A stretch of 64,000 nucleotides of DNA from Tubulanus polymorphus (lineage: Eukaryota > Nemertea > Palaeonemertea > Tubulaniformes > Tubulanidae), in contig NC_134025.1 in the NCBI RefSeq assembly GCF_964204645.1, positions 30,596,001 through 30,660,000 of the forward strand. Direction: 5' to 3'. This document shows positions 14,314 through 54,136 of the stretch, in pieces. The position numbers and the translations under genes are program-made. The notes under the pieces are model-generated. The model was not told the origin of the DNA. It searched no databases and saw nothing but the letters and a program-made list of their open reading frames with translations. Within the stretch, counting starts at the first letter, position 1. Each line of letters starts with the position of its first letter.

Positions 14314-17300
14314 ATGGATAAGTGTCACACATACGAACCAGATATTTCTGTCCCGACAAACCACATCGAAATGTCAGAGCGTTACACGAAAAAAGAGGAC
14401 ACATCTCCGGGACAGAAATTACAGATGTCCAGTAGTGCCGGACGGAGTGAAGATATTCCAGCATGGGTCGACGAAGAGGGAGGATTGAAAGTGGCCACGG
14501 CTACTGTGTTTATCGTTGGAGAGATGGCTGGAAGTGGAGTATTGGCGCTGCCTAAAGCTACTGTTAACACAGGTAAAATATTCCATTATTTATTATATTA
14601 CTACCTTAATCCGAATAAAATTGCATTAATTTTGATAGAATAGAATATTGCGAGATAAAATCAATAAAAATGATGAAATATGAAGAACGCGTGTGGTGTG
14701 TCCAGAGCCTGGAGGCAGCACTCCAGATGTGAACAGTCAGTCGAAGCGCCCTGGTGAAACAAAAACATCTGGACCCAATTGCGACTTTTTGATTGATTCT
14801 AGGGTTACGCATATGAACTATTAGTGCCTTAAATGGGAATCAGAATGTTGGAGCCAGGGTCTTGAATTCTCGATAACTCAGTTTCAGTGTAACTGCTGTG
14901 TCATGAGCATGTTTGAATCTTTTTTTTAATTAAAAATATATACATGTACATATATACGTACATACAATATTCATATTCTACAGATAATGTACTGTACTGT
15001 TATCATACATCCAGGGAATTTGACGGTGATAAGCCCGATATGAATAAGTGTCACAAAATCTATATAATAATATTTGAATCAATGCACTGATCCGAATATG
15101 ACAATGGATGGCTACCGACTTTGGAGAAAAATCCCCAAAAATTGAATAGTCCTAGAGACACTGTTGATGTGCAGACCGCGACATTTAAATTGTAGATGAA
15201 TCGTTGAGTTTTTCGGTTTATGGTTGGAGTCAAATTTCCTGTAGTTTTTGTGCCGTTATTTCAGGCTATATCGGAGTGTTGATTTTGATAGTTTGTACAT
15301 ATTGCGCTGCGTATACGGGGAGCATTTTGGGAAAATGTTGGATGATTCTACAAGAACGGTATCCAGAATACAGACAACCGACTAGGTATCCGTATCCAGC
15401 CATTGGATACCGGGCTTGTGGACCCGCAGGAAGGTAAAGCCCCACCACTGCCATTAGTGCGAATTTCGAGCTCTAAGATGAATTGAAAACGATCTTTCCA
15501 CCCATGTTCAGAGTTTATTTGAAAAAAAAATGAAAAAGAGTGAATAAAATAAACTCTAAAGATGAGTGGAAAGATTCCACCCGGAACATACGAAAAAACA
15601 ATAACAGTTTTTTTGAATTGATAGTATTGTGGTTTGTGCACCATTTCCAGTATCAATATTGAAATTCTAATATGCATTTTTATTTTGCAGATATTTGGTG
15701 TCGTTATGTAACAATGTAACATTGTTCGGAGTATCGACTGTATTCGTGATAATGGCAGCTGAAATACTGCAGGATTTATGTTGGGATTACGGGTTAAAAA
15801 TGTCCGCCTGTTACTGGTTACTGGTTATAGCTGCAATTCTCATACCCTTTACATGGCTGGGTAGCCCTAAAGACATGTGGTAAATAAATGTATGATTTTT
15901 CAAGAGTCGGGTTCAACGAGTGCAGATCGAAGTCACCTCCCAAGCGGCAGCGGCGAACAATCCAAATGCCATGTCATCTTCGACCACATGAAGGACAAAC
16001 ACCAGAAGTTTCACGGTGTTAAGTTCATTTTGGCCCAGAACCTCATTGATAAGACTGCGGTTTCAGGATCCTCATGGGCCTCCGAACTGGTTTAACTATT
16101 ACCAGTTTTTAAGATCAGAGTTGCGGTAGTTGATTCTATACATGTTCTAGATAAGAGAAAGTTTCTTTTATTTGACAATCCCAGAGTGAAACGATTTTCG
16201 ATATATCCGAACAGTCTTGAAATAAAAAAAATAGATTCAATCGGGAGCGGTGAGTCTCGAACTCAGGGTCCCCAGTCGCATATGCGAACGCCTTGACCAT
16301 TCGGCTATATTACTGACCACTGAGTTGTCGAATCTATGATGATCCCATGTGTAAGGTGAACATTTCACTGTACAAATGAATGTTAATGCAAAATCTTTAA
16401 ATTTGTAGAAAATAACTTCAAAAGGTTATGTGCCGCCTTGTGACTGTTTTGACTATATTTTTCAAATATTTCACAGGCCTCTAGCGATTGGTGCAATGTT
16501 AACGACTATAGTAGCTACGGTACTGGTATTGATAAAACTAGTGATGGCAGCTCCTTTGATGAAAGATATCGAGATCACGCATACGCCTCCGAACCTAAAA
16601 CCTGACGGTATTAAACACGCGTTCATGGCGTTTGGGACGATGATTTACGCGTTTGGAAATCACCCGATTTTCCCTACGATTCAGCACGATATGACTGAAC
16701 CGAAAAAATTTACGACAGTTGTATTTTGTGGTTTTACAGGTAGATATAAGCCGCGATCACACGAGCATTTTTGGCCGGGGCCAAATATGGCCCGTAACAA
16801 CTGTTCACACGGGTGCCAAATGGGCCCGACCAAAAACGTCGGATAACATTCCCAGTTGGTCAAAGGTTGGTTCAGTAAATCACCTGGCAAACGTATATCT
16901 CATCACCAACCTTCTCAGTTGTCAGTTATCCAGTTAGCTTTAACCAAACTTTGATCCACTGGCCCAAAGAAAATTTTTTTTTTGTCCGTGGTGGTTTTTA
17001 AAAGCCTCTGTATAGAAAATTCGAATTTAGTTTAAGTTCAAATTTCACCTTGTGTTTAACCCTCAATCCATGTATGATATATTGATATTTTGTTTCTCAA
17101 TTTCAGCTGTTATATTGCTGTATCTACCAATAGTTATCGGTGGTTATGTCGTTTTTGGTGACACGATTCAAGATAATATATTAAGTTCACTGAATGCAGT
17201 TTCACCAGGTCCAATATTGACTGTGATTCAAATACTATTCGCATTACATCTGTTATTCGGGTTCGTTATAGCAATAAACCCGTTCTGTCAGGAAGTCGAG

Positions 17301-18423
17301 GATCTCTTTAAAATCGAACAAAGTAAGAAGAACCTTCGTCCGGGTTTTGCCATATACTAGTTACCCTATTTTAAGTTGAAATCCAAATTTGAAAATTCAA
17401 AAGCAAAATTTGTTCAAGATTGAATTTGTAAATATATTCTATAGTCACTGTGCTAATACTACTCAACCTTATGTTGATATTACTGTTGTAGTATTCAGTG
17501 TGCGTAATTTGCTCAAGTTCAAAATGAAAAATCATTGACATGTTTCAATCATAATTAATCAAGAACTCTTATCTTTATAATTAGCTACTTAAAGTGTTCT
17601 TATCTTAATCATAGCTACATCAAGTACTACTGGAAATTAATACTTGATATTTATACTTCTAGAATTTACATGGAAGCGCGCAGTGGGTCGTACTCTGATA
17701 GTATGCATGATATTATTTGTTGCTGAATCTGTACCGAAATTTGGAGCTATTCTGGCCTTGATCGGAGGCTCAACTACAGCTTTACTTTCATTTATACTTC
17801 CGTGTGTGTTCTACACGAGACTGTGCAATAGTGGCGGTGTTTGGCAAAAAAGGTGATTAATTGATATACGTAAAACAAAGGAAATTCTCGATGGTTCCGC
17901 AGTGAACTATTACTATAACTCCTTACAGTCAAACATGGCTCCCGATTTTCAACGAGTCAGTAAAAATGTTTAAGGCAGCGAATTGGAAAAAAAAGATTTA
18001 AGTTGCCGAAAGACCATTTCGAGCACATACAACCACAGGGCATATTACTGAAAATGTCGAAAATGATCTATAACTGAATTAAGTGGAATAAAATCCTTTA
18101 AAATGGCAAAAAGGCTATAGCTAAAGGCTACAGTAAGTTCATGTCGGGCTGCGACGCGACGCAACTATGAGAAGACATGCGATCATAGCCCGACTAGCTG
18201 GATTAGTTGGTCACTGAGTCACTGTGGCCCGCCTGAAATTCATAACTGATTTTTTATTTGAATTTTCAGATTTGTGCCGCTACATAAAACAGTATTTCAT
18301 TACGAACTGATTATCATTGCTGTGATAGCTGGAAGTATATCAACATACGCGGCAATAGAAGACATCGTCAGTCCCGATACATTCGTCTATCCCTGTTACG
18401 TCAATGCTTCGTTATTTCTATGA
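14314..18423 (+). CDS. Amino-acid transporter, AAAP family (Aa_trans), 479 aa
   Basis: A polytopic membrane amino-acid transporter of the amino acid/auxin permease superfamily, the group that includes SLC32, SLC36 and SLC38 and the AVT transporters. Exons are 14314-14572, 15265-15433, 15691-15879, 16477-16739, 17107-17322, 17663-17852 and 18270-18423; all junction phases agree and the total is 480 codons with stop. The first membrane segment contains the family hallmark FIVGEMAGSGVLALPKA. Later hydrophobic segments include GYIGVLILIVCTYCAAYTGS, HAFMAFGTMIYAFGNHPIFP and YLPIVIGGYVVFG. The ~55-residue N-terminal tail is hydrophilic and the length is typical of the family. The start is the first ATG in the open frame. 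The substrate cannot be read from sequence, and vacuolar/lysosomal or plasma-membrane location are both possible. A polyadenylation signal candidate is at 18429-18434. Confidence 0.9.
16238..16318 (-). repeat. tRNA-like sequence in transporter intron 3 (SINE head or tRNA pseudogene)
   Basis: Read on the minus strand there is an A-box-like TAGCCGAATGGTCAAGGC followed by a B-box-like GAGTTCGAGACTC with a 4-bp T-arm. The acceptor stem does not pair, and the anticodon arm is a near-palindrome, TCGCATATGCGA, instead of a 5-bp stem with a 7-base loop. It is therefore not a functional tRNA gene. A tRNA-derived SINE or a decayed tRNA copy explains it best. Confidence 0.5.
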
Positions 18424-21020
18424 TATATAATAAATAACTTTAAAAAAATCTATGTTTTCACTCAAAGAAAAAAGAAAACCCCACAGTTTTGATGAAAAGC
18501 TAAGAGTGTAGTAACATTTTGACTCAATTCTACGAGCCATTTTCAAAACTAAGGGGGCGTTTAAAATTCTATGAGCCATTTTCAAAAGCAAGAAAGAAGT
18601 GACGTCAGACTCGAAACGTCACTAATCTCCATAGTTTTTCTTCATCAGTAACTTGTCTTGTGGAAAACGATATGTTTTCTAAATGGATTTGTACTTGATG
18701 TATTTGTACTTAAACGAAAAGTCAGTATCGACTTTTTAAAATCTGAGTCAGATTTCAGTCGCCAAAAACTGAGAGAAACATATTCTGTTTCAAAAAACAT
18801 CTGCAAACAAGGACCTCATGAATTGTTGTTTTCGTGGAAATTTTTATATAGAAAATCTGTCAGTTCATTGAAAATCAATCTACACCCTTCAGAGGATATC
18901 AAACCACAATATCCGTGATGTAGTAAAAAGAGTCCCACCCACAATTTTAAATCTCAGGTGTTCGATACCATCTTTCGGCAGTCCTAAGTGATGAATACTT
19001 TTTAGACTGACGAAAGGTATCGTTATATTTCTAATAAACTTTTTAGTCAGTTCAGAATTTTGGTTGGACTTAACGTAAGATAGGATTGTTTGTTTGCCTG
19101 TAGCTTGTTTGATTGTTTAATTGTTTACAATATACGACCATTAAATTCAATTTATACATGAAATTGACTGTTTTTTTTAAAATCTTATTGCAATTCATCC
19201 TGACACTTTATAAGACCACTTTACACAATTTAGAATACCACAAAATTACACGAATTAAGTTTTACAAATATTGAGTAAGGACAAAATGTACTTTGAAAGC
19301 TCGTGATTTTGATAAAATCACTTTAACCTTCAAACTACTATTTGTCCTAATTCAGTATTTGTAAATCGAACGTCGTTATGAATAATGAAGAGAATTTCTG
19401 CACAGATGTTAAGAGTGGTCGTGGAGAGTGGTTGGTTCACATTCTGTCACTGCACACACACGCACACATGCTTTCTAACTTACAGGTTTTCTAAAAAAAA
19501 ATCTACGTTAAGCATATGGACCATATTTATATGTTATATGAGTATAAAATTGTTCGCCATTTTGTGAACTGATACAATAGCATGTACTAAAGCAAGAAAG
19601 TTGTAAGAAGAATTAGAACAGAGCGCGATGATGTCTGACCTCCGGTAGCCAGACCATTTGGACGTTTCAGACCATACGGTTTGGACCAGTACATGGAAGA
19701 ACCTGTTGAAATCATAATGACGTCATAGATGATATGTCATGATTTGTGAAAGATTGAATAGTAGGTCCAACGATAAATGTAGAAATAAGACGAAATTTTC
19801 TGTAACAAAATAATTCATTTCAGCAACGTATCGGCCATTATCTGATGTAGTTAGTGTTGTTAAAGTGTTAGTTTCAACGCAATTTGATAAAGATTCGTTT
19901 TCTTGAGTCAATTATTCAATCAAACTATCGGTATTTTCACTGGATTCAAACAGTTCTGATATGAATTCAAACAGTTCTGATATGAATTCAAACAGTTCTG
20001 ATGTGAATTCGAGTTTTGTCAAGTTTATGGTTTATCAATAGAAAGCTAAAAAAACATGAAATTTATCAAAATAAAATATTTTCAAACCGTTAAAATACAG
20101 ATTGCATAAAGTAAAAGCCATAAATAAAAAAACGATCGAAAAAGCGAAACAGCTGAAACAAGAATGAATATTACTTTCACTCTGTTTATAACATCGACTA
20201 CTAATGTTGTATTTTTGAACGTTTAGAATAGCAGGAAGAACTAATGTTTTTTTGTGATACGTGATCTAGGTAGGTATCACAGCGCTCGGAAGTACGGCTC
20301 GCTGAGCATCTGTCGTTCAGATCGAGTTACAGAACGTCGTTAACAGATGACAAACCTATATTGAATATCACCACCGATCGCAGCCCCGTTCTACAACATC
20401 CTGGCGATTGCCACAATCTCCCGGGACAAGCAAATCAAATCAGGATATTTTTGGAAATATAGCTCATTTTTGTTTTAGATGAGATTTGAGGTAAGAAATT
20501 AACTAGTTTTAGTGACTTTTTAACAGTCGCCTTTCTTTCGAAAATAGGCAATCTTCTTCAAAGTGTCCACTTTTGTCGGGATCTACAGTTTCTGGCTAAA
20601 TTTTGACTTTTGAATTTTAGGTTAGATAATTACAATTAGTGGTATTAGAGGTGTATCACGTGGAACAAGTTCCGTAATAATTTCCAGCTCAGAATTGACT
20701 TAATAGTTTAAACAAATTGGGAATTAAAAATCTGAAATCAAACTAAACAGGATACTGTCGACTGGGTCCAGGAGCGGGAGCTCATATTCAAATAAACCCA
20801 TGACTCGTTTTGAGATATTGAACTGTTACTTTCTATGACAGCTGATACTTAAAAACAAAATTCATTAGCTTTTTAAATTTTCAGTAATCGATCAGAAAAT
20901 AATGAATACTATTTGAAAGACTGGAGAACACAATGGCGAACAATAGTAGCGATTTATACGAACGGAAATCAATACAGAGTGATAAACAACGTGTTTGATA
21001 AAACAGAGAAAATATAGAAG
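18424..21020. other. Intergenic region upstream of the FN2 gene
   Basis: No recognised exon. It holds two copies of a ~50-bp repeat (about 18505-18595) that also forms an array at 36.5 kb, and a 21-bp tandem repeat with core GAATTCAAACAGTTCTGAT (19942-20009, about four copies). A possible 5' untranslated arrangement for the FN2 gene is visible: a donor at 20491 (TTTGAG then GTAAGA) and a pyrimidine-rich acceptor ending at 20884. Two short upstream open frames start at ATG 20902 (four residues) and ATG 20933 (about 21 residues). An open frame at 18658-18918 lacks family features. Confidence 0.5.
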
Positions 21021-24000
21021 ATGGTAAAACCATTTTGGAAGCAATGCAACCCGTGGGATGTGGTGTTCTGGACTGTATTTCTAGCTTTGATTGGTGGATT
21101 TCTATACGTCGTCAGCCTCATCATTATCGATTCGATTAAGATAAACAAATTAAAGCATAAAATACACGTATATCATAACAGTACTATTCATATAACTCGA
21201 TCAACTCAGGCTTTACTCAATACGACGTCAAAATTCACATCTTCTTTACCAGTTTCAACAACATCGTCAACATCACGTGCATCACCATCGCCTTTCATCT
21301 CTACGACATCTCAAACCGCCATTTCAACTACAAAGCATCAAAATAAACACACCACACACCACAAAACTACCACAAAACCTGCACCAAAATCAAGTCACCC
21401 GTTTGTAAAATCTACTTATGGTGCGTTTTACACAACCATACATTCAACTCAATCAGCACAGCGTAGCTCAACTAGAAAAACAAAACCAGTAGTAACCACA
21501 ACACCAAGGCGTACCATGAAACCAGTAGTTACCACAACAGTGAGGCGTACTACCAAACCAGTAGCTACCACAACACCAAGGCGTACCACCAAACCAGTAG
21601 TTACCACAACAGCAAGGCGTACCATGAAACCAGTAGTTACCACAACAGTGAGGCGTACCATGAAACCGGTAGCTACCACAACACCAAGGCGTACCACCAA
21701 ACCAGTAGTTACCACAACAGCAAGGCGTACCACCAAATCAGTAGTTACCACAACAGTGGGGCGTACCACCAAACCAGTAGCTACCACAACAGTGAGGCGT
21801 ACCATGAAACCAGTAGCTACCACAACAGTGAGGCGTACCATGAAACCAGTAGCTACCACAACACCAAGGCGTACCACCAAACCAGTTGTTACCACCAGGC
21901 GTACTACAACACTAGGGCGTACCATGAAACCAGTAGTTACCACAACACCAGGGCGTACTACGAAACCAGAAGCTACTTCAACAGCAAGGCAAACCACCAA
22001 AACAGTAACTACCACAACATTGAGACCAACCACCAAACCAGTAGCTACCACAACACCAGGGCGTACCACGAAAAGAGTAGCTAATACAACACCAAGGCGT
22101 ACCACCAAACCAGTTACTACCACTACAGTGAGGCCAACCACCAAACCAGTTACTACCACAACAGTGAGGCCAACCACCAAACCAGTAGTTACCACAACAC
22201 TGAAGCAAACCACCAAACCAACAACTACAGTGAGACCATCCACCAAACCAGTTTCTACCACTACAGTGAGGCCAACTACCAAACCAACCACAACAGTGAG
22301 GCCAACTACCAAACCAGTTTCTACCACAACAGTGAGGCCAACCACCAAACCAACCACAACAGTGAGGCCAACCACCAAACCAACCACTTCAGTGAGGCCA
22401 TCCACCAAACCAACCACAACAGTGAGGCCAACCACCAAACCAACCACAACAGTGAGGCCAACCACCAAACCAGTTGTAACCACAACAGTGAGGCCAACCA
22501 CCAAACCAACCACAACAGTGAGGCCAACTACCAAACCAGCTACTACGACAGTGGGGCCAACCATCAAACCAGTAGCTACCACAACACCAGGGCGTACCAC
22601 TAAACCAGTAATTAGCACAACAGTGAGGCCAACTCCCAAACCAGTTACTTCCACAACAGTGAGGTCAACCATCAAACCAGTTACTACCACAACAGTGAGG
22701 CCAACCACCAAACCAGTAACTACTACAAAAATGAGGCCAACCACCAAACCAGTAACTACCACAACAGCAAGGCGTACCACCAAACCAGTAGTTACCACAA
22801 CACCAAGGCGTACCACCAAACCAGTAGTTACCACAACAGCAAGGCGTACCATGAAACCAGTAGTTACCACAACAGCAAGGCGTACTACCAAACCAGTAGT
22901 TACCACAACAGTGAGGCGTATCATGAAACCAGTAGTTACCACAACAGCAAGGCGTACCATGAAACCAGTAGCTACCACAACAGTGAGGCGTACCACCAAA
23001 CCAGTAGTTACCACAACACCAAGGCGTACCACCAAACCAGTAGTTACCACAACAGCAAGGCGTACCATGAAACCAGTAGTTACCACAACAGGAAGGCGTA
23101 CTACCAAACCAGTAGTTACCACAACAGTGAGGCGTACCATGAAACCAGTAGCTACCACAACAGCAAGGCGTACCACCAAACCAGTAGTTACCACAACACC
23201 AAGGCGTACAACCAAACCAGTAGTTACCACAACAGTGAGGCGTACCATGAAACCAGTAGCTACCACAACAGCAAGGCGTACCACCAAACCAGTAGTTACC
23301 ACAACACCAAGGCGTACCACCAAACCAGTAGTTACCACAACAGTGAGGCGTACCATGAAACCAGTAGTTACCACAACAGCAAGGCGTACTACCAAATCAG
23401 TAGTTACCACAACAGTGAGGCGTACCATGAAACCAGTAGTTACCACAACAGCAAGGCGTACCATGAAACCAGTAGTTACCACAACAGCAAGGCGTACCAC
23501 CAAACCAGTCGCTACCACAACAGTGAGGCGTACCATGAAACCAGTAGTTACCACAACAGCAAGGGGTACCATGAAACCAGTAGTTACCACAACAGCAAGG
23601 CGTACCACCAAACCAGTCGCTACCACAACAGTGAGGCGTACCATGAAACCAGTAGTTACCACAACAGCAAGGCGTACCACCAAACCAGTCGCTACCACAA
23701 CAGTGAGGCGTACCATGAAACCAGTAGTTACCACAACAGCAAGGCGTACTACCAAACCAGTAGCTACCACAACAGTGAGGCGTACCATGAAACCAGTAGT
23801 TACCACAACAGCAAGGCGTACTACCAAACCAGTAGTTACCACAACAGTGAGGCGTACCATGAAACCAGTAGTTACCACAACAGCAAGGCGTACCACCAAA
23901 TCAGTAGTTACCACAACACCAAGGCGTACCATGAAACCAGTAGTTACTACAACAGCAAGGCGTACCATGAAACCAGTAACTACCACAACAGCAAGGCGTA

Positions 24001-27000
24001 CCACCAAACCAGTAGTTACCACAACAGCAAGGCGTACCACCAAATCAGTATTTACCACAACACCAAGGCGTACCACCAAATCAGTAGTTACCACAACAGT
24101 GGGGCGTACCATGAAACCAGTAGTTACCATAACAGCAAGGCGTACCACCAAACCAGTAGTTACCACAACAGCAAGGCGTACCACCAAATCAGTAGTTACC
24201 ACAACACCAAGGCGTACCATGAAACCAGTAGCTACCACAACAGTAAGGCGTACCACCAAACCAGTAGTTACCACAACAGCAAGGCGTACCACCAAATCAG
24301 TAGTTACCACAACACCAAGGCGTACCATGAAACCAGTAGCTACCACAACAGCAAGGCGTACCACCAAACCAGTAGTTACCACAACAGCAAGGCGTACCAT
24401 GAAACCAGTAGCTACCACAACAGTGGGGCGTACCACCAAACCAGTAGTTACCACAACAGCAAGGCGTACCACCAAACCAGTAGCTACCACAACAGTGAGG
24501 CGTACCACAAAACCAGTAGCTAGCAAACTGTCGACTTTATTAACAACTAAAACAGAAATGATTACGACTAAACAAGCCTCAACGTTTCTGGCGACAGTCA
24601 AGAAAATTAAGGAAAAAATAAAATCTACGATTTCTACCCTGGAAATTCAAAAGTTTACGAATATGATAAATTCGACATTGAAAACTACTCCAAATACTGA
24701 ACTAAAAACCACCAAGAACTCAGTAACTATTCTTCAAACTACAACAATTCCAACCCAGACTGGAACTCCTAGCTGGCCAGGTCTGCTACCATACTCTCTC
24801 AATACACCGTACCCTGTGGATCCAGCGGGCTGGTGCAAACCTAACCAAACCGACCCGTTATTACTGAAAATACAAACAACCGGAGGAAACTCTGACGGGA
24901 ACGAATGTATATTCCCTTTCCATTATAACGGACTGTGCTACGAAAGTTGCATCGAAACGTTCGACTCTAAAACCTATCCGTGGTGCGCTACTTCAAAGGA
25001 TTTCAACAAGGATAAAAAATGGGGCTATTGCATATGTAAGTATAGAAGTATGAAATGATAAAGCGTCCTGTGGTAAGATTTCTCGTCATATTTTGTATTG
25101 CTACTTATGAAAAAAATGAACAAGTCAGTATCATTATTTTGACCTGGTCGTGCCATCTCCCTGGTTGTGTTGTCAGTATGTTATGTGACCACAGTCAGTG
25201 AGATTATGGTCAGTATGAGTCGGCAAACAAACCTTACACAGACCACTCATACGCAATCTATAGATTGACCAAATAGGTCGGATTTGGATTGTTCTGGTAC
25301 AAACCAGTTTGTGGCCGTACGACAAAAGGTCACGTTATTGTTACGTGATGCAGGTAGTGGCTTCACTTAATACCCGTCCTGTAAACGAGAATCTTATAAT
25401 GAAACAGTGATTAGAATGCAGTTTTTAGGCATTAACGAATCGCCGAAGATTTTGGAAATTTCTTTCCTTTTTTATCCATTGGAAAATGCCAGATAATGAT
25501 ACTGGGAAACTTAAGTCACATTTTCGAAAAATTGAATCAAGTCCCCAGAACGCTTTTTCAACTGACATTAAAGAATAATTATCCTTTTCACAACTCATTT
25601 TGGCTTAAACCAATGATTATTGAATTTTTTTTTAAATTTCTTAATTGATAGTGCGAGAAATAAAAACGTTTGGAGGCTCTGCGAATGGCGATATTTGTCA
25701 TTTTCCATTTCAACTGAACGGTGAATATATGTACTCGTGTCAGACGAGTGGTCAGAACTATCCGTGGTGCGGTACAACACTGATGTATGATGAGGATCTG
25801 AAATGGGGATATTGTCTCGGTAAGTTCCAGCAGGAGAAACAGTTCCATATCGGTAACGTTTGACTCGAAAGTTGAAATTGATTATACACGCTTTATTCAG
25901 ATCAGTTTTATCCGGAGTTTTCTATCTTTATCACGGCTCACATAGAACATAAATGTATGTAAAATATGATGTTTATTACGGATTTTTCATAAACCGGACG
26001 CATTTCATCAGTTCTGAATGATCAGAATTAAGCGCAGTCTACTGTAGTTCATTCCAATTTTTTTTAAATTTTGCATCCCTCGAAAACCAACTACACCTGT
26101 CGGAAATGAAATGGGGGTTCCCAGCTGAGCCAGAGAACCGTTGAACTGGCTCCTGGTGTCGTCAATATATAACTGCATCAACATTTTTTAATTCAGTTCA
26201 ATCAAAAATTCATAAAGACTATGAACTTATGGTTCGATTCAAGTATCAATAAACGTTAATTCTGTTTTCTATCTCGACTTTTAGATGAAGTTATGCCAAC
26301 ATTCGGTGGTGAGACCGGAAATGAAACTTGTTCTTTTCCGTTTTTCTGGAACAAAACTCTACACTATCAGTGCATACCGTCTGAATTCGGTGACGTTAAA
26401 ATGTGTTCGACAACCCCTGATTACGACAGAGATGGTAAAATGGCCTACTGTTTAGGTAACGACCACTTTCAACAATATTAATTTCAAAAGAATAATAGTA
26501 ATATTAAAAGAATAAAAGTAATATTTTATGTCTGATTTTTTTCCTCAGATGATAAGCAGAAAGTGAGAGGTGGAAGTGACCCGAACGGTGTTTGTGTTTT
26601 TCCGTTTTTCTCGAATAAAGTCTACACGGAATGTATCCCGACTAGTTCCCGTGATACGACAGGAAGATCCTGGTGTTCTACGGCTCCAGATCGTGTTTAC
26701 AGTTCCTCCTACTGGGGATACTGTAAACGTGGGTCATTTTTGTTATTTCAATCAGATTCCTCGTGAAATTCTAATTGTTTTGATTCATCTTGGTCTTTAT
26801 CTTTAATCGAATCTAAGCATAAGCTGCAACTGACCCCCAGTTATGTCATCCGAAACAAATTTTGTGGTTTTGGTCGATTTCTCAGCTTCATCTGAATCTG
26901 GACTGTTTTACTTATATGAAGATACATAGAATTTGCAATTGTATGACTAAAAGAAAAATCAAAGATTAAATACGTTTATTATTTTGTAGCTGATGTGACT

Positions 27001-29845
27001 TTGACGATGGGTGGAAATGATCCGAATGGATCTTGTGTATTTCCTTTCTACGCCGATGGAGAAGTTCATTCTACGTGTATTACTACTAAATATCGTCAGA
27101 AACCGTGGTGTTCAACCACACATAATTACCATCTAAATCATACATGGACTTACTGCATGGAGCGTAAGATATTCATTTCATCTAACTTATTATTAAGTGA
27201 AAAATTTTTTTTTGCATTATGTTCACCCTGAATTTTGAATTATGAATTTAAAGCTAGTAGTCAATTCTAGTTACCGATAATTTTGGGCTTCTGTGATCTG
27301 AAATAAAGATATAATCTGAAATCACACATGCTTTGCTTATATTCTAAAGTGTTCACCATGTCATCCCTAGGACACGGTATATCTGGGATAAGATGAACTG
27401 ATTTGTATCCAACTGTAGAACTATTAAACTGGATCCTGTCTTTTCAATAATTCCTCGCTTTGGTTGTTTTTTTTAATTGTAGCGTTGGAGATCGGAACTT
27501 TCGGCGGAACTGGTAACAATCGCAACTGTAGTTTCCCGTTCTTTTACAAAGGAGAACTGTATGATAAGTGTATAAACGATACGGCCACTAGTGACTGGTT
27601 GTGGTGTTCGGTAACTCCCGATTATGACGTGGATCAAGCCTGGGGATATTGTAATGGTAAGTTCATCAGTAGCGTGGTGAAATGGTTATTTCATATTTTC
27701 AATATCGACAACAATTCAAAGTTTTACTGTTTTTAACTTAACCTTTCTCGTAAAACAGGACAATTCATACGTTACTTATCAACTAACATTTTCTGGAAAT
27801 GTTCTAAATCTCATCTTAAGAGAAACAGTAAAGAATCTAATTTTTTGGAATTATCAAGAAGTTACTAATTATCTAATCTACAAACTGAAGAAATACGTCA
27901 GTCTACTATCATGTAATGCATTCATTCAAAAAGAATATAAAATCGATTTAAAACTTGTTGAATATGATTCTGTGTTATCTGACGTTTATTACAGTTTTCT
28001 ATTTGTCGTTTTTAGTGATGGATATTAAAACATTTGGTTCTAGTTCTAACAAAGCAAAAGATGAAGGAAAATCGTGTCATTTTCCGTTTAAAATGAATGA
28101 TAAAATGTATTCTCGATGTTTACCGTCGGATTTACCGGGTGTTAATATGTGTTCGCTTACTGCTGATTATGATAAGGATAAATCAAAAGCTTACTGTCTA
28201 GGTATGTAAAATTCTTTTATGCCTGAGATAAGATAATCTTGGGGTGGGAGAAAATTGGGTTAGGTTTGAGGCTACCGTCTGTACATAATCGGAAACTGCA
28301 TTGAGGTGGTTTGTTTAAACAATATTCAAACCTGAACTGGCAAGCGACTGATTGGGTTTATTTTTGTGGCTGCCTAATCTAATACATTGAAGTTGAATAA
28401 TTTTGTGGCTGCCTAATATGCTAACGTTGAATATATAACCATAGGGGTGTAAAAATCATGTATTGTCAATTGTTATATTTTTGGTCGTTTTAAATAGTCG
28501 GAAAGTTTTTTTTGGTTTTTCTTAATTGATCGTTATAGATGACGTAACTATGACGTATAACGGAAATTCTAACGGTTCGAGCTGCGCGTTCCCGTTCGTC
28601 TATACCGGAAAGGTTTATGCCGAGTGTATCCCGCAGTCGAGAGGTTCACCCTGGTGTTCCACTACACACGATTACGATTCCGACGGGATATGGGGCGAAT
28701 GCGTCCGTGAGTCTAACTAAATAATCTTCTGCGAAGACTTATCATTCATAATTCTTGTAGGCTAATCATTTATAAATTTTAGTTATAATCTTTATTACTT
28801 TCTTACAATGTATAATTTATTTATATTTGATGTTTATTGGAACATGAAAACGTGTTATTTTTAGCACCGGATAACCAGTTAACGAAAGGAGGAAACGGCG
28901 CTGGTAAACCGTGTCAGTTTCCATTCCTCGATAAAGATGGATCGGTACAAAGAAAATGTCTTACAACGAAATCGAAGCAATGGTGCGCAACGACTCATAA
29001 CTATAAACTTGACCGACAATGGACTTACTGCGTCAATGGTAACTTAGAATATCTTATAATTCTTTTGTTTATCAGTACATCTGAAGTTGACTTTAGGATA
29101 CGACTTCCTACAACGTTGAATAACTTGAACTTCAATGGAATATCTTTGACTCCTTTTCATTTCTAGTGTCAGATTTTATATTGTTATTATATTTGAAATA
29201 TTTTCTAGGGACGTTTGTAATTGAAGGTTTCGGAAACGCTTATCCGGGAGCTACGTGTGAATTCCCTTTCATATACAAGGGTAAAGAGTATAATGAATGT
29301 ATCAAAAGTAAATCGGGAACTTGGTGTTCATTAACTGCTGATTTCGATGCTGATAAACAATGGGGATATTGTACTTACACAAAAAAGTAAGCAATTATTC
29401 GGAACTTAATTTTACAAAAAATATCTTTTTGAAAATGGTGGTCGTGGCACCTTTCTGGTTGTGCAATCATCATGTTATGTGACCACAGTCTGTGAGATCA
29501 TGGTCAGTATGAGACGGTAAACAAACCTTACACAGACCACTCATACGCAATCTATAGATTGACCAAATAGGTCGGATTAGGATTGTTCTGGTACAAACCA
29601 GTTTGTGGCCTGTACGACAAAGGTGACGTTATTGTTACGTGATGAAGGTAGCGGCTTCACTTAATACCCGTACTGTACACGACAATCTCACAATGAAACA
29701 GCGACTAGAATTCACAGTTTTAAGCTCCGGGACGCAATAAAATGTTAAATGGCGTATAAAAATATTTTCCACAGTAATGACATTAAAAACAAATTTGAAC
29801 GTTTTCATTTCTAGGCCAAAGAAAAACGGAAAATCTTCAGGATGA
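21021..29845 (+). CDS. Membrane-anchored repeat-stalk protein with ten fibronectin type II domains, 1872 aa
   Basis: Exons: 21021-25035, 25652-25819, 26285-26455, 26549-26728, 26990-27163, 27483-27656, 28016-28201, 28539-28706, 28865-29038, 29209-29386, 29815-29845; 1873 codons with stop. After a short N-terminal tail, residues ~15-37 form one hydrophobic helix, so the protein is probably a signal-anchor membrane protein. Residues ~150-1170 are 12- and 10-residue repeats (RRTTKPVVTTT, TTTVRPTTKP), a probable O-glycosylated but strongly basic stalk. The end of the large exon encodes FN2 domain 1 (CIFPFHYNGLCYESC, WCATSKDF, WGYC). Nine more FN2 domains follow, one per phase 1-1 exon, each with four cysteines. 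The C-terminus is short and hydrophilic (KPKKNGKSSG). FN2 domains bind collagen, gelatin or choline lipids in known proteins; the ligand here is unknown. Basic residues just after the helix leave topology uncertain, but the disulfide-type domains argue for an extracellular C-terminus. The start ATG has a good context (AAGATGG). Confidence 0.9.
21480..24530 (+). repeat. Coding minisatellite: 36-bp and 30-bp repeats encoding the basic Thr-rich stalk
   Basis: About 85 tandem units inside the first coding exon of the FN2 gene. Most units are 36 bp, encoding variants of ARRTTKPVVTTT; the variable positions alternate between A/V/P before RR, T/M before K, and V/A after PV. A block at about 22205-22560 uses a shorter 30-bp unit encoding TTTVRPTTKP, and 22560-22760 is mixed. 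Paired 72-bp higher-order units are clear at about 23460-23830. Every unit length is a multiple of three, so copy-number change keeps the frame. Each 12-mer has about three basic and no acidic residues. Confidence 0.95.
25145..25430. repeat. Copy A of a ~290-bp direct repeat
   Basis: It lies in the intron after FN2 domain 1. It is highly similar over about 286 bases to 29438-29727, sharing for example TTATGTGACCACAGTC and TAGATTGACCAAATAGGTCGG-like stretches, in the same orientation. Whether it is a mobile element or a local duplication cannot be told from two copies. Confidence 0.85.
29438..29727. repeat. Copy B of the ~290-bp direct repeat
   Basis: It lies in the last intron of the FN2 gene, after FN2 domain 10, in the same orientation as copy A. 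The two copies differ by scattered substitutions and 1-base indels, so they are not recent. Together they bracket exons 2-10. Confidence 0.85.
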
Positions 29846-30382: not shown

Positions 30383-33229
30383 ATGAACGCAAGAACGGCT
30401 CAACAAGTAAAACTGCAGTTAAAACAGAAGTCGGTGACAGTTCCAGATGAATGGTTGAATGCGTGTATTGAATGGATTCTTTCTGAATATCAGGTCAGTG
30501 TCGGTTCATCATTAAAGATTCTGTGTTAATCTAACTGAAACAAAGCTGATTCGAAAAAGGAAGTTTCAAATAACATTATGCTTTTTAAATTTTTGAATTA
30601 GCTTCAGTAGTAGCTTCAGTAGCTTTGAAATATCGCACTTTGAAGTTTGATGTTGAAAATTTGAGCAGTTGGATCAATATATTTCAATAAAGCTGTTACT
30701 GTTTGTGTGTTTTGTTTCAGCAGGAAGCCGGTTCTAGTGTCACTCAGTTGAGTCATCTGGTTTATGAACAGTGGTTAGAAACCGATTTACAACAACTCAA
30801 TAGTTCTTCATTTCCTTTAAATCTCAGTAAAGATGATAAATGTAACTTGAATGAGAAATATTGTGTTCAGGTAACCGTGCAAACCCTTCTCATTATACGG
30901 GGGCTGTTGCTCAAATAGTGCATTTCAGTTAATTAACTCAAATTCTAATTGTAATCAAATGCTCAAAATTGTGAAATTTGGTCCAAATTGAATTTTGAAC
31001 AATTCAGATAAATTCAATGCGAGATGCCGGAGTTTCAGCTTACAGTCAGCTCCAAAAACTGAAAGGAACAGAAAATGAAAATGAACAAGTTTCAGCTGCT
31101 CCTACTCAAACATCAGTAAGTTAATGATGTCATCATTTCAGAGATTTTATTTGTAGTTTTTCAGATTGTAATTTTTCTTTAAAGAATTTCTATATCTGAT
31201 TTTAGTGGGAGCCAAAAGCAAGTCGTATGTTGATGATGTGTTTAACCGATGGTAATCAACAGGTTTTTGGAATGGAGTATAAACCAATTCCTCAAATAAA
31301 TTTGAATTTACCTCCAGGAACAAAGGTAATGAAACAATGGGCCATCTATAAAATACGTCACTTTGTTGATTTTCAAACTCCTCAACATTGATGTGTATGT
31401 CCTTAATATGATGACAAAAATTGAATTGTGTCCCATTTTGCCTGAGTTAACTGTTTTTTTTTGTTCAAGGATAGGAGTAGATATTTTCACTAAAGTCTAA
31501 TTTCTATTTTCTACGATCAGTTATTGTTAAAAGGGAATATTATTTGTCGTCATGGTGTTCTGATGTTAACCAGGGATAATATAGAAGTTCTCGGTGGACA
31601 AGTTGAACATCTTCAACAACTAACTCAGATTCAAATTCTAGCCGGGCATTTGTATGTACAGATTCTTACCGCATCGTCACAATATAATTGAAATAAATGA
31701 ATCTATCGGTTGAAAATGTTTTCATTGATTTTGTTTAGAAATATTGAAGAAGATGAAAATGAACCGAATCGCGCAGAAGAGAATCGTCATAGACAGGTTC
31801 GGGTTTTGATAGTTTATATTTCGAATTCTCAAGGGAATTAAATTGAATATTAATGATGCTAAATATTTAACCGAAGGTTGAAGATTCTAATGAAGAATCA
31901 GTAATGATGACCACTGCTGCTTCTACTGAGATGTTGGACGATTCATTGTTTAATGATGAAATGGATCCAGCTATTTTACAAGCAATGGATGATCCCGTAA
32001 GTATTATCATGTTACTCATTTTGATGAAAACGAATTTTCATCCAATTGAATTTTGTTAATACTGATTTCAGTGGCAAGATGAAGATGATATGGACCTAAT
32101 GCTTAGCCAAATACCAGAACCAATTCCAAGTCCAGCTCGACAACCTGGTCCATATCAGGTTCCAGTTCGACAACCTGGTCCAGTTCAGAGTCAAGTTCGA
32201 CAACCTGGTCCAGTTCATCAACCTGGTCCACTTCAGAGTCAACTTCGACAACCTGGTCCTGTTCGACAACCTGGTCCGATTCAGAGTCCAGTTAATCAAC
32301 ATGTATCAGAACCTCTCTTTGCGACTAATAACCCGAGTGGATCAGGAATTGACCTGGAAACTGATTCTAATCGTGAAGTGAAAGATTTGTTGAGAGTATT
32401 GAATTGGCCGGTGTTCGAGACTCTACACGCAACTAACAACACACGACACGGTAAAATCAGATACAATCATTCCATGAATGATTTTGATGAATTTACTGTT
32501 AATTTTTCTATCTATTAAAGGAATATCAAACAGTAGATATAGAAATGATCTACACTTCAAACAGGCTCCATTCACATATCTAAGTCGAGTTGAGAAACTG
32601 CTTCCAGTCACCGAACCTCTCATATTTAGAGTAAAGGTAAAATGTAACGGTCAAGTAAGAAATTAATGGAATATAAAACGTTGACAGTTTTCTTTCTATT
32701 TCATATGACAGGCATATATCTCAACATTGACCGGTAAATTAGAATTTAATTCTGGTCAATATTGGAGCTTATCGGCTAAAATTAACGATGGCACTGCATC
32801 AGTAGATGTAGATCTCAGTGATCAGGTCAGTTGACATCTGGCTCAATGTAGTGTACTCATTATTGTATGATTTACTTAGATTATTTTCGCTGTAGTTTCT
32901 CACTGAACTGATCGGTTACACGGCTCAGGAAATGTGTAATTTTCGAAAACAAGCTTCGAAAAACCCAGAAATCAAAACACGAATCAGCCAAGTAGGTTTA
33001 CAGGGAATATTTTTGAAAAACATTTCTCATACTGAATAACTGATGTTAGTTATTGCGATTGTTTCAGAGCATCAGAAACTGTCAACAAAAGTTGGTTGAT
33101 TTGTACAGCATTCTGGAAATCGAAATTACTACTGATAAATCTTGCAAACCGACCGTTAAAAAACAATATTCATTAAATTCGGAACACGTGAATCAACTGA
33201 AAAAACGACTTACACTGGAGAAAAATTAA
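30383..33229 (+). CDS. RMI1: RecQ-mediated genome instability protein 1, 554 aa
   Basis: RMI1 is the OB-fold scaffold of the BLM-topoisomerase III-alpha-RMI complex, which dissolves double Holliday junctions in the nucleus. Exons: 30383-30493, 30721-30870, 31008-31115, 31206-31325, 31521-31651, 31739-31796, 31877-31996, 32072-32450, 32521-32636, 32712-32825, 32896-32991, 33068-33229; 555 codons with stop and consistent phases. The N-terminal helical region begins VPDEWLNACIEWIL. The first OB fold includes MEYKPIPQINLNLPPGTK and LLLKGNIICRHGVLMLTRDN. The acidic linker is followed by a proline-rich repeat (RQPGPV units). The C-terminal OB fold (PFTYLSRVEKLLP onwards), which binds RMI2 in vertebrates, is present. 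The start is the first in-frame ATG. The acceptor of exon 2 is a tandem CAGCAG. AATAAA is at 33277-33282. Confidence 0.93.
32110..32310 (+). repeat. In-frame RQPGPV-type repeat in the RMI1 linker
   Basis: Six or so units of the type CGACAACCTGGTCCAGTTC, interleaved with CAGAGTCAA-type spacers, encode RQPGPV/RQPGPIQSP repeats in RMI1 exon 8. They lie between the two OB folds, in the linker that is disordered in vertebrates. This is an internal expansion that does not disturb the frame. Confidence 0.8.
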
Positions 33230-33474
33230 CTTCATTGTGGCAGAGGACGATTAACTTCGATTCAGTGCAGAATGTAAATAAAGCTTAATTTTGTTGATTT
33301 TAAGTTTTGATTTTTTAATGATTTCTCAAGGATGACTAAGGAAGCAATGACACATTTTTAAGTAAAAATTGTGCCTATACTTAGGCAGGAATGGTTGGCC
33401 TCTGCTGATTCTGGAATTATCTTCAAGTGCTTTCCTTTCGACCAGTCGCCCTACCTATTTTAGAATAGCATCAT

Positions 33475-34345
33475 CTGTAAACCCGATAGAAGCGGTCGGT
33501 AGAGAGTTTGTAATCTGTAAACCTGATAGAAGCGGTCGGTAGAGAGTTTGTAATCTGTAAACCTGATAGAAGCGGCCGGTAGAGAGTTTGTAATCTGTAA
33601 ACCTGATAGAAGCGGCCGGTAGAGAGTTTGTAATCTGTAAACCTGATAGAAGCTGTCGGTAGAGAGTTTGTAATCTGTAAACCTGATTGAAGCGGCCGGT
33701 AGAGAGTTTGTAATCTGTAAACCTGATAGAAGCGGTCGGTAGAGAGTTTGTAATCTGTAAACCTGATAGAAGCGGTCGGTAGAGTTTGTAATCTGTAAAC
33801 CTGATAGAAGCGGTCGGTAGAGAGTTTGTAATCTGTAAACCTGATAAAAGGTAGAGAGTTTGTAATCTGTAAACCTGATAGAAGCGGTCGGTAGAGTTTG
33901 TAATCTGTAAACCTGATAGAAGCGGTCGGTAGAGAGTTTGTAATCTGTAAACCTGATAGAAGCGGCCGGTAGAGAGTTTGTAATCTGTAAACCTGATAGA
34001 AGCGGTCGGTAGAGAGTTTGTAATCTGTAAACCTGATAGAAGCGGCCGGTAGAGAGTTTGTAATCTGTAAACCTGATAGAAGCGGCCGGTAGAGAGTTTG
34101 TAATCTGTAAACCTGATAGAAGCGGCCGGTAGAGAGTTTGTAATCTGTAAACCTGATAGAAGCGGTCGGTAGAGAGTTTGTAATCTGTAAACCTGATAGA
34201 AGCGGCCGGTAGAGAGTTTGTAATCTGTAAACCTGATAGAAGCGGTCGGTAGAGAGTTTGTAATCTGTAAACCTGATAGAAGCGGTCGGTAGAGAGTTTG
34301 TAATCTGTAAACTTGATAGAAGCGGCCGGTAGAGAGTTTGTAATC
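33475..34345. repeat. 40-bp minisatellite, about 22 copies
   Basis: Tandem units of 40 bp; the core is CTGTAAACCTGATAGAAGCG followed by GTCGGTAGAGAGTTTGTAAT. Units are nearly identical apart from a recurrent C/T change (GGTCGG versus GGCCGG), occasional single substitutions, and shorter copies near 33780, 33842 and 33890. It lies between RMI1 and the convergent PPIL3 gene. Confidence 0.95.
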
Positions 34346-35666: not shown

Positions 35667-36091
35667 TTCAAATGAACGAATGAGTAAAGAGTTAGCTTTA
35701 AAACGCTTCAACCACCGGTGTATAGCAAGGTAATAAATGCTGATTGAATTTGATTATTGCTCCGCTAGGCGGTGCACCGGTAGATTATTCACCGGTAGAT
35801 TTTATTCACGGTTGATTGAATTTGAAAAGTGATAGGTAATTCACGCTCTGCTGCAAATAAAGCCACACACTAAAAATAACCAACCCTTCTACAATTCAGT
35901 TCACACGTTGTTTGTAGTAAGTCCATTGGATGAATCAAAGTACCTGAACCGTGTCTTCCCTTTCTGCTTTCATGCTTTTAAAAATTTGGGCCCTTCTTCA
36001 GTAAAACTCGTTCCTTCAGAGATGAGATAATCAATGCTTATAAATTTCTTTTTTTCATTCCAGATTCTTCTATATCAAAATATCCTGAAAA
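35667..36091. promoter_or_regulatory. Divergent PPIL3/DPY19L3 intergenic region
   Basis: PPIL3 reads left and DPY19L3 reads right from this 425-base gap, so it probably holds promoters for both. A pyrimidine tract ending in CATTCCAG (about 36050-36062) is a good acceptor just before the DPY19L3 start, which implies a noncoding first exon further upstream. No TATA box is obvious. Confidence 0.45.
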
Positions 36092-39000
36092 ATGGCTTCC
36101 AATAGCGACGTTCGAAAGAGGAAATCGCGAATGACCCAGAGTGCTGATTTCAAGAAGAAGAACGCTTCCAACTCGAAGAACATCAACGCAGCCAAACAGG
36201 GAGCTGCTGATCAGGGGAAAAATGAAGCAAAACCTGGATGGAATTTATTTGGAATACTGTTGAGTATTTCAGTGGGTCTCGTACTGATGACAGTTGTATC
36301 TTACAAACACGCTGAATATATGTTCACAATACATGAAAATAATCTATGGTTCTCGAATATCAAGGTAAAAACAGTTTTCATCCATTATTCTAATCTATAA
36401 ACTGGTTTTCTTAAGTTTTGAATTTTTTTATTTTAAAACATAATGGTATTGGTTTCCATAGAAAAAGTGATTGGCTGTCTGATTTAATTAAAGAAAAAAT
36501 ATACAATCATAGACTTAAAGAGTAGTGACGTTTAAACTCAATTATATGTGATATTTTCAAAACTATTAGAAAGTGACATTGAAACTCAATTCCATCAGCC
36601 ATTTTCAAAACTAAGAGAGTAGTGATCTTAAGACTCAATTCTATCAGCTACTTTCAAAAACTAAGAGAGTAATGACGTTTAGACTCAATTCTATCAGCTA
36701 CTTTCAAAAACTAAGAGAGTAGTGACGTTTAGACTCAATTCTATGAGACATTTTCAAAACTAAGAGTAGAGTAGTGACGTTAGACTCAATTCTATCAGCT
36801 ACTTTCAAAAACTAAGAGAGTAGTGACATTTAGACTCAATTCTATGAGACATTTTCAAAACTAAGGGAGTAGTGATGGTTAGACTCAATTCTATGAGACA
36901 TTTTCAAAACTAAGAGTAGAGTAGTGACGTTTAGACTCAATTCTCTGAGTGGTCTACAGAACCATTTTTTCTCATCAATGCTGAGATTGTCTATATCTGA
37001 ATTCCTTCCTCGCGCTGAGCTGAGGAGATTTTCTATTAATCATTATGTATGCATTCAATGCAATAATGTGACTACTTTTTTTTCGCATGTAACATATTGT
37101 GAACACAGTTTGATCTTATGGGTTACCCCTAGAACACTCAATATAGGTTACCCCTGGAGAACAGCGGCTAGACACATATTATTATATTATTTAGACTGAC
37201 AAGATTCTTGTTTATGAGAAATCTTGATTTGACGCAATAATTTCACTTGAAGAAGGCTGGCCGTGAATGTTCAGATATGAGCTAGTTAAAGCAGTCTCAA
37301 ATATCGAATAAAGACTGTTATTAAGTTGATTCACCATCGATGAGATTAAGTAGACATATTCGCCATAGATTAGAAATAAGATTAGACTAGTCTCGATTAA
37401 ATCTAAGCCTAGACCGTGGGATCGGGACCTGATTAGATGAAAATCTGGAATTGGCAGTTTTTTATCGATTAAGTAAAAGGTGTTTTTCTTTTGAATTGTG
37501 TAAAACATGAATTGATACTAATGATGATCTATTAATGATGATCTATTGAGGGATTGATGGTGATCTGAACAAATATTAAAACTATTTTCAATCTGTAACA
37601 TCTGTTTACTGGTGAATACATACACGAGATATTGTGCAGTCTGTCACACTAACTATAGACTGACTGACTGTATCACTGACTGTATCACTCACTCTCACTC
37701 TCTGTCTCATCATGGTTTCTCCTCATCATAACAAACGACGCAAAACTTTCTCAAATTCATCGAAAAAAACGGATACAAACGATAATAAGGAAACTAGCGG
37801 TTATTCATTATTTCTGATCGGATGGAATTTTAATAATATTCTATTTTTCGTAGCCGGTGTTTTCGCCTGTGCTTACATAGCTAGATATAATTCATCCCTT
37901 ATACGACAAACGCATGAAAGTCAGCTTTGGTTTTCAAACATTCAGGTAAAGTTTTTCAGGAATTTTTAATGAAATTCTTCTTTTAAGGGGCTAAAAGTTA
38001 ATTAGATTTTCAGGAAGCACCTTGCAATGAACTTCTGATTGGTTGGTCTAATCAGGGAGGGAGACTGTTTGTACTTAAATGGTTATCTCTGAGTTAAACA
38101 GTTATCTGTGTTAAATAATTATCTGTGATTTAAATGTTTATCTCTGATATCAAAAAATCATCGTATGAATTCTATGCTGATATGTATCAGTATGTTTTGA
38201 GTTGACATGTAAAATGTGCACCTGCAGTATTAAAACTGACGAACTATTATTAGTATATGTTTATACAGCTTCAAATTGCCGCAAGGTGTTTATAAAACTG
38301 ACAACTATTATCAGTATTATATGTTTCATATATTCATAATTTACACGACAGCTGAAAAGTTAGAATCATCACATTTTCACTTGCTTTTTATACCATTTTA
38401 AATTGTGACAGATCCATCAAAAGAGATGCAGTCTCTCAATTTGAGTTCTATCCCACCAGGTCTCTTGATTTGAGTCTTTCACTTTGTTTGATATGAATTT
38501 AAATCAGTCCTATGAAAAGGAACTGGGTAATACATTGAAACCCGCTTGATTTGGATCGTTTTAGCCAATCCAAATTTCATCTATGTTATGAGAACTCCTG
38601 ATTAAACATCATATTATTTTATTTAATGAACATTTATATATCTAGACCGTATATGGTTTCCTGATGAAGGTGGATTAGAGAGTGAATTAAGTGGATTAAG
38701 AGTGGATTAAGTCGATTAAACTGAGCGGATTAAGTGGATTGAACGAGTTTGACTATTAATGAACAAAACCCACAGTTGATGATTTCATAATTAGGGTTTT
38801 CTGTTTCTCTGATGATGGAAGTTTAGTCAAAACTTCATCAATTATGGGTTTCGTTTATTAATTTCAAAATACTGAGATTGATATCAGACTCATCTCCCCG
38901 TCAGAGATCTGAATCGAGTTCGACTATTACACATTATTCTCTGCGTCTGTGATTTACAGTATAATCTGCTCTTTTTCAGGAGGTCGAAAGAGAAATTTCA

Positions 39001-45527: not shown

Positions 45528-54136
<8,609 letters not shown>

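Follow-up and report, generated by a model that had tools for sequence, protein, structure and literature searches.

Gene structure

The stretch of DNA analysed here (the window) comprises 64,000 nucleotides of the nemertean Tubulanus polymorphus (contig NC_134025.1, positions 30,596,001 to 30,660,000, forward strand), and on its plus strand lies what looks like a real gene encoding a long, basic, threonine-rich protein with ten fibronectin type II (FN2) modules. The gene was modelled as 11 exons between positions 21021 and 29845, with splice sites picked by eye, giving a product of 1,872 amino acids (aa) with a calculated isoelectric point of 11. Both this extent and the 11-exon structure reproduced the original prediction, which had been made from the sequence alone; the predicted end, 29845, coincides with the third base of the stop codon (29843-29845), which follows the final residues PKKNGKSSG. 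Exon 1 occupies an open reading frame at 21018-25058 on the plus strand, where the ATG at 21021 is directly preceded by an in-frame stop codon and then a single Lys codon. It encodes, in order, a short N-terminal tail, a hydrophobic segment, a Thr/Ser-rich lead, a repeat stalk, a linker and FN2-1, the first of the modules. Exons 2 to 10 were 168-186 bp long and each held one FN2 module. All ten introns had a GT donor and an AG acceptor; introns 1-9 were in phase 1 and intron 10 was in phase 2. The features of the gene, all on the plus strand, were as follows:

21021..25035, plus strand: exon 1, with start codon, signal-anchor-like helix, Thr/Lys/Arg stalk, linker and FN2-1 (single open frame, GTAAGT donor)
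21060..21128, plus strand: hydrophobic segment, about aa 14-36, resembling a type II signal anchor (sole maximum of membrane-helix strength in a 19-residue Kyte-Doolittle scan)
21483..24519, plus strand: 36-bp tandem array of about 85 units, KPVVTTTxRRTT-type, the central part with 30-bp KPTTTVRPTT units (Tandem Repeats Finder, composition, codon table)
24870..25034, plus strand: FN2-1, in exon 1 (Pfam fn2, 50 bits)
25652..25819, plus strand: exon 2, FN2-2, a phase 1-1 exon (Pfam, 55.2 bits)
26285..26455, plus strand: exon 3, FN2-3, with Met in place of both pocket Trp (Pfam, 42.4 bits)
26549..26728, plus strand: exon 4, FN2-4 (Pfam, 32.4 bits)
26990..27163, plus strand: exon 5, FN2-5 (Pfam, 48.3 bits)
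27483..27656, plus strand: exon 6, FN2-6, complete YWYW pocket (Pfam, 61 bits)
28016..28201, plus strand: exon 7, FN2-7, with Met and Lys in place of the pocket Trp (Pfam, 44.6 bits)
28539..28706, plus strand: exon 8, FN2-8, complete YWYW pocket (Pfam, 62.6 bits; AlphaFold2, Foldseek)
28865..29038, plus strand: exon 9, FN2-9 (Pfam, 38.8 bits)
29209..29386, plus strand: exon 10, FN2-10 (Pfam, 60.3 bits)
29815..29845, plus strand: exon 11, C-terminal PKKNGKSSG and stop codon (AG acceptor, phase 2)

The repeat array was also open in a 1065-aa frame on the minus strand and a 635-aa frame on the plus strand, so openness by itself is no proof of a gene. Together with a ratio of nonsynonymous to synonymous differences between repeat copies (pN/pS) near 0.8, this is what a satellite that is open by chance and adjoins an unrelated FN2 gene might produce. 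Such an artefact is barely credible, however, because one and the same frame runs from the start codon through about 85 units and into FN2-1 without a stop or frameshift, which fixes the coding frame. This continuity, and the matching splice sites and phase of each FN2 exon, argue for a gene rather than chance. Since anchor, stalk and FN2-1 all stand in one uninterrupted exon 1 frame, their linkage needs no transcript. The original prediction had been made to depend on the joining of the large exon to the FN2 exons; that question is half answered, as the large exon itself carries FN2-1; FN2-2 to FN2-10 are linked by clean phase-1 GT-AG introns.

Judged by eye, introns 1 and 10 of the gene (about 25131-25410 and 29441-29700) hold two copies of one short element; the copies are similar and perhaps represent a small transposable element.

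N-terminal segment and repeat stalk

The predicted single signal-anchor-like helix was recovered: the best 19-residue Kyte-Doolittle mean was 2.61, at aa 18-36, while the best value past residue 60 was 0.73, and no other stretch of the protein was hydrophobic enough for a membrane helix. A match to MMM1 (mitochondrial morphology) at aa 40-119 (E = 0.0019) was rejected, as it scored 18 bits against a cut-off of 21.9 and fell in a low-complexity region.

Tandem Repeats Finder placed 85.3 copies of the 36-bp unit in the array (score 2959), which bears out the prediction of about 85 repeats of RRTTKPVVTTT type. The stalk itself was taken as aa 150-1168, and its 1,019 residues included 398 Thr (39%), 144 Arg, 89 Lys, 111 Pro (11%) and a single Glu, that is, 233 Lys or Arg against one acidic residue, for a net charge of +232. 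About three basic and no acidic residues per repeat had been expected, and about 2.7 basic residues per unit were counted. When the stalk was cut at KP, KS or KR, 74 of the 86 pieces were 12 residues long; the central block consisted of the 10-residue unit KPTTTVRPTT. No super-repeat was found in the stalk, since unit identity was flat (0.857-0.888) at lags 1-15. Between copies in the coding frame (74 units of 36 nt), pN/pS was 0.79, indicating weak constraint. The first codon was nevertheless Lys AAA in all 74 units and the ninth was Arg AGG in 67 of 74, which suggests that charge has been kept while the sequence drifted.

Tandem repeats rich in Pro, Thr and Ser define mucins, and the stalk has this character (39% Thr and 11% Pro over 1,019 aa and about 85 units), although its strong basic charge is unusual for a mucin-like repeat. 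A precedent for a basic Thr repeat exists in the glue proteins of Drosophila: Sgs1 has PTTTTPR and Sgs3 has KPTTT repeats, and the Sgs3 repeats are O-glycosylated and part of the adhesive (PMC9409817). Compared by eye, these motifs form long basic Thr/Pro repeats like those of the stalk, and the Sgs proteins are likewise described there as secreted and adhesive. They differ in that no FN2 module or membrane anchor is mentioned in the part of that paper available; they also belong to another lineage, and common descent is not expected. The likeness to mucins and Sgs proteins is therefore confined to the stalk.

The 60 dibasic sites in the stalk raise the alternative of a repeat precursor, from which proprotein convertases would free short TTKPVVTTTx peptides. 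This is very improbable. A furin-type site (RxxR or RX[K/R]R) occurs nowhere in the protein, 57 of the R..K sites are followed by Pro, which disfavours cleavage, and the repeats run on without spacer peptides.

FN2 modules

The translations of ten exon frames were scanned with Pfam, and all ten expected FN2 modules exceeded the fn2 (PF00040) cut-off of 22.2 bits, scoring between 32.4 and 62.6 bits. Cysteines C15, C29, C39 and C54 were invariant in 10 of 10 modules, which would place them in an extracytoplasmic, oxidising location. An eleventh module was not found when a profile of the ten was compared (E <= 1) with the stop-free segments of at least 25 aa in all six frames of the window. FN2-8, the sole module modelled, was folded by AlphaFold2 with a mean pLDDT (predicted local distance difference test) of 94.6, and the model had a TM-score of 0.89 to both 1gxd_B and 1l6j. 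Foldseek ranked the mannose receptor on top, followed by FN2 modules of MMP2/9, fibronectin and Endo180/uPARAP, while MMP9 and MMP2 came first among sequence matches in the PDB.

Pairwise identity among the ten modules was 26-52%. When FN2-3, -4, -5 and -6 were set against FN2-7, -8, -9 and -10, the paired identities were 44, 44, 52 and 44%; this offers a suggestion only of a four-module block duplication, as other pairs were equally high (2-7, 45%; 5-8, 46%; 3-6, 44%). The phylogeny comprised 63 modules and 56 columns, with a bootstrap that had not settled. In it, the pair FN2-3 and FN2-7 (96/90) was the sole focal pairing to reach the starred level of support, FN2-5 and FN2-9 paired at 96/54, FN2-4 fell together with modules from elsewhere in the genome (85/89), and the position of FN2-1, -6, -8 and -10 lacked support. 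The focal modules did not form one clade; they required 8 changes, and 55 of 500 shuffles were as low.

Pocket residues and ligands

Collagen binding by FN2 modules uses the same face as the choline pocket. For PDC-109, phosphorylcholine binding has been proposed to involve two Trp and two Tyr per module, in the order Y, W, Y, W (PMC2823774). These four positions were mapped onto the focal modules through the match range of 1h8p, and compared with 53 other FN2 modules from 20 stretches of the same genome, overlapping copies being counted once and one truncated copy (at locus L009) being dropped. The full quartet was present in two of ten focal modules (FN2-6 and FN2-8) against 25 of 53 others, a difference that was not significant (p = 0.17), and all four positions were aromatic in 4/10 against 39/53 (p = 0.06). 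Both Trp were retained by 8/10 focal modules and 49/53 others; FN2-3 and FN2-7 had neither. Loss of the first Trp, 2/10 against 0/53, gave p = 0.02, but this is weaker than its face value because FN2-3 and FN2-7 are probably of common descent. In both, Met replaces the tryptophan of the WC motif, which was present in all 53 modules compared.

By this residue pattern, a few modules look ready for a choline lipid and two do not. The proposal that the FN2 array binds collagen or choline lipids gains only partial support: the quartet is complete in FN2-6 and FN2-8, eight quartets are incomplete, and FN2-3 and FN2-7 are without the pocket Trp, which weakens the idea that every module binds such ligands.

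The same residues bear on an innate-immune role, in which the protein would be a surface receptor or opsonin whose FN2 modules bind phosphorylcholine or collagen-like microbial ligands and whose cationic stalk binds negative cell envelopes. The full quartets of FN2-6 and FN2-8, the Trp pair in 8/10 modules, the mannose receptor FN2 modules as top fold matches and the divergence of the modules are all consistent with this. It is distinctly unlikely even so, given that the Pfam scan of the exons detected no recognition domain such as a lectin, Ig or LRR domain and that the full quartet is rarer here than among the genome's other modules (2/10 against 25/53, p = 0.17).

FN2 loci elsewhere in the genome

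Genome searches covered a 267.8-Mb assembly of 77 contigs, in which the window is C1:30596001-30660000. At least 65 fn2 matches were found: ten belonged to the focal gene, and the remaining 55 were spread over 21 places. Most of these places were covered by 20 stretches of 10 kb that were read, which left out the copies near C1:20.59 Mb and the single modules at C8:10.43 and C10:10.596 Mb. The original prediction held that multi-FN2 proteins are best described in vertebrates; this may be true of descriptions, but the abundance of FN2 here, including a second ten-module run on one strand at C9:9.298-9.314 Mb (one gene or several), limits it to them. One FN2 triplet recurred in fixed order at three minus-strand loci (L022, C5:2.9 Mb; L023, C5:20.35 Mb; L025, C10:12.12 Mb). 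In the tree, two of its corresponding modules grouped across all three loci, and the third grouped L022 with L023 only. In viral contigs, one stretch matched the FN2-8 pattern and no encoded relative was found there.

The focal gene itself appears to be single-copy in its genome. Its N-terminus matched only itself at E <= 1. The stalk gave 27 matches, 15 of them in the focal gene, and the other 12 were 23-45% identical, five having internal stops. FN2-1 to FN2-4 matched other loci at 34-56% identity, as single modules only (the search ignores introns, so longer spliced matches cannot show).

Frames of at least 150 aa, or Thr-rich frames above 60 aa, were then considered within the stretches fetched. 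A long simple repeat was joined to, or lay next to, the FN2 modules of five loci, the focal gene among them. At about C10:10605600-10608600 (L026:5619-8602), a 662-aa frame combined ASGEESETV-type repeats with an FN2 module, and a second FN2 module lay downstream; the 601 residues before the FN2 module had a net charge of -163. An upstream exon, joined by a GT/AG pair in phase 1, encodes MKFLPVVFVAIALFRIGLVTG, and judged by eye MKFLPVVFVAIALFRIGLVTG looks like a cleavable signal peptide. On its sequence, this gene appears to have the plan of the focal gene with the opposite charge, although it begins with a signal-peptide-like segment instead of an anchor, and the focal N-terminus did not match it at E <= 1. 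An FN2 module at C11:1.9 Mb runs in frame into 15 NNGANNGQ units. Two further loci had same-strand, separate frames after their FN2 modules: a 532-aa Thr/Asn-rich frame at C9:9.30 Mb and a Lys/Gly-rich, Cys-containing frame at C9:16.18 Mb. All resemble the focal gene in joining or placing a long simple repeat next to FN2, and differ from its basic Thr repeat in being acidic, Asn/Gly, Thr/Asn or Lys/Gly. A VWD domain (C1:4.1 Mb) and a CUB domain (C2:28.2 Mb), both typical extracellular modules, each lay near two FN2 modules, as neighbours that are perhaps separate genes. The coupling of FN2 with long repeats in this genome is a descriptive observation; its recurrence, with VWD and CUB, suggests that FN2 is an ordinary extracellular building block in this animal.

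At C1:4.1 Mb, two 236-aa frames (L016:3990-4697 and 6976-7683) stood beside the two FN2 modules and were identical over the first 70 residues compared, the second being VWD by Pfam; a recent tandem duplication is likely.

The acidic gene bears on whether the focal product is an organic-matrix protein of a shell, tube or other biomineral, its basic stalk pairing with acidic matrix proteins, such as the product of the acidic FN2 gene, and organising mineral. Besides this same-plan protein with its signal-peptide-like start and net -163 repeats, it may be noted that shell matrix proteins often contain long low-complexity repeats. A membrane anchor would be unusual for a matrix protein, however, and no literature match, within partial coverage, joined a fibronectin type II domain with shell matrix; this role is considered unlikely.

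A wider and quite doubtful idea is that in this animal FN2 serves as a common linker in a set of oppositely charged, extracellular low-complexity polyelectrolytes. The set would comprise the basic TTKPVVTTTxRR protein (stalk +232, ten FN2), the acidic ASGEESETV protein (-163, two FN2), and the NNGANNGQ and Lys/Gly versions. Mixed outside the cell, these would form a glue, mucus or mineral template resembling a complex coacervate, fastened by FN2 heads to collagen or membranes. If true, this would add to the spiralian repertoire a class of low-complexity extracellular proteins with FN2 fixed to polycationic, polyanionic or neutral repeats; research on mucus, on adhesion under water and on biomineral templates has an interest in sets paired by charge in this way. 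With an acidic partner and two intact phosphorylcholine pockets, the ideas on binding lend themselves to direct tests on short recombinant fragments.

Comparison with known families

Three families with FN2 modules were considered. MMP2 and MMP9 carry an FN2 triplet inside the zinc metalloprotease catalytic domain, and with fibronectin they supplied the best PDB sequence matches and close fold matches of FN2-8. No metalloprotease, hemopexin, FN1 or FN3 match was obtained by Pfam in the focal exons scanned. Proteins of the mannose receptor family (MR, Endo180/uPARAP, DEC205, PLA2R) are type I, with a ricin-type CysR domain, one FN2 and multiple C-type lectin domains; like the focal product they are membrane proteins with FN2, and they gave the top fold match, but neither a CysR nor a C-type lectin domain was found by Pfam in the same exons.

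Binder of sperm proteins (BSPs) are small secreted proteins. BSPs such as PDC-109, and ELSPBP1, share with the focal product tandem FN2 modules and, in FN2-6 and FN2-8, the quartet. They differ from its 1,872 aa, ten modules, N-terminal anchor and repeat stalk (none in BSPs), and from the incomplete quartet of 8/10 modules. A gamete-surface or seminal role comparable to that of vertebrate BSPs and ELSPBP1 would accord with the tandem modules and with the repetitive, fast-changing sequence common in reproductive proteins. It is nonetheless improbable, as the signal anchor and long stalk do not fit, the phosphorylcholine quartet is complete in two modules only, and there are ten modules against the two in tandem given for BSPs in the accessible text of PMC4557993.

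By these comparisons, the focal protein is a member of the FN2 domain family that lies outside the BSP, gelatinase and mannose-receptor families, as it lacks a defining feature of each. Among the literature matches listed, which give partial coverage, no protein combining an anchor, a basic Thr stalk and ten FN2 modules appeared in titles or the beginnings of abstracts. Several of these matches were FN3 papers, since 'fibronectin type II' is also contained in 'type III', as in PMC8059625. The novelty of an anchor, basic Thr stalk and FN2 array in one protein is likely.

Proposed function

The reading preferred here, with a probability of roughly one half, is that of an anchored or shed mucin-like protein of extracellular matrix, mucus or an adhesive, bearing a multivalent FN2 head. 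We infer its membrane topology, glycosylation, ligands, tissue and role. The N-terminal hydrophobic segment would take the chain into the secretory pathway. Left uncleaved, it would serve as a type II anchor, and the stalk would present the ten FN2 modules at its tip; if shed, the protein would become a mucin-like component of the matrix. As a disordered, polycationic and probably O-glycosylated tether, the stalk would be kept extended by Pro and Thr-linked O-glycans, and it might reach about 200-350 nm at 0.2-0.35 nm per residue. The FN2 modules would bind matrix or glycoconjugate ligands weakly and multivalently, and the basic backbone could retain, by electrostatic attraction, polyanions such as sulfated or sialylated glycans and acidic matrix proteins.

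Several points weigh against this interpretation. The exact sequence of the stalk seems to matter little, because its variation is weakly constrained (pN/pS 0.79), and the ligand pocket appears eroded in several modules. By inspection, the charges after the helix (D37, K40, K43, K45, K47) are more positive than those before it (K3, K7, D13), and a more positive flank after the helix does not favour an N-inside orientation; the putative N-inside type II orientation rests on the disulfide-type modules at the C-terminus. The word 'fibronectin' is also absent from the main text of a paper on limpet adhesive proteins (PMC7333891). The original suggestion of a cell-surface or secreted adhesive or mucus protein is partly supported: the gene, single-copy in its genome, does encode a strongly basic, mucin-like stalk and an FN2 array, while the binding component is weakened by the eroded pockets.

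Other features of the window and genome

Pfam matches to other genes in the window were as follows:

14242-17357: amino-acid transporter (Aa_trans)
30383-30915: RMI1
41249-41581: Dpy19
43873-44658, minus strand: CFAP161
48013-48363: protein kinase

Upstream of the Dpy19 exon were two similar frames, at 36089-36400 (..HENNLWFSNI..) and 37664-37969 (..HESQLWFSNI..), the first without a Pfam match; these are perhaps tandem paralogues or alternative first exons. A 40-bp tandem array at 33473-34345 (22 copies, 95% matches) was open in three frames of the minus strand, 290-304 aa long, and is probably a young non-coding satellite. Elsewhere in the genome, a search for mitochondrial COX1 gave no match, whereas a pattern-based search of 11 short pieces placed ten homeodomains in a row on one strand at C6:5.318-5.635 Mb. 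By their signatures these assign the animal to Spiralia; we take them to be, in order, Post2, Lox2- and Lox4-type, Antp, Lox5 (KLNGP), Scr, Dfd, Hox3, Hox2 and Hox1.

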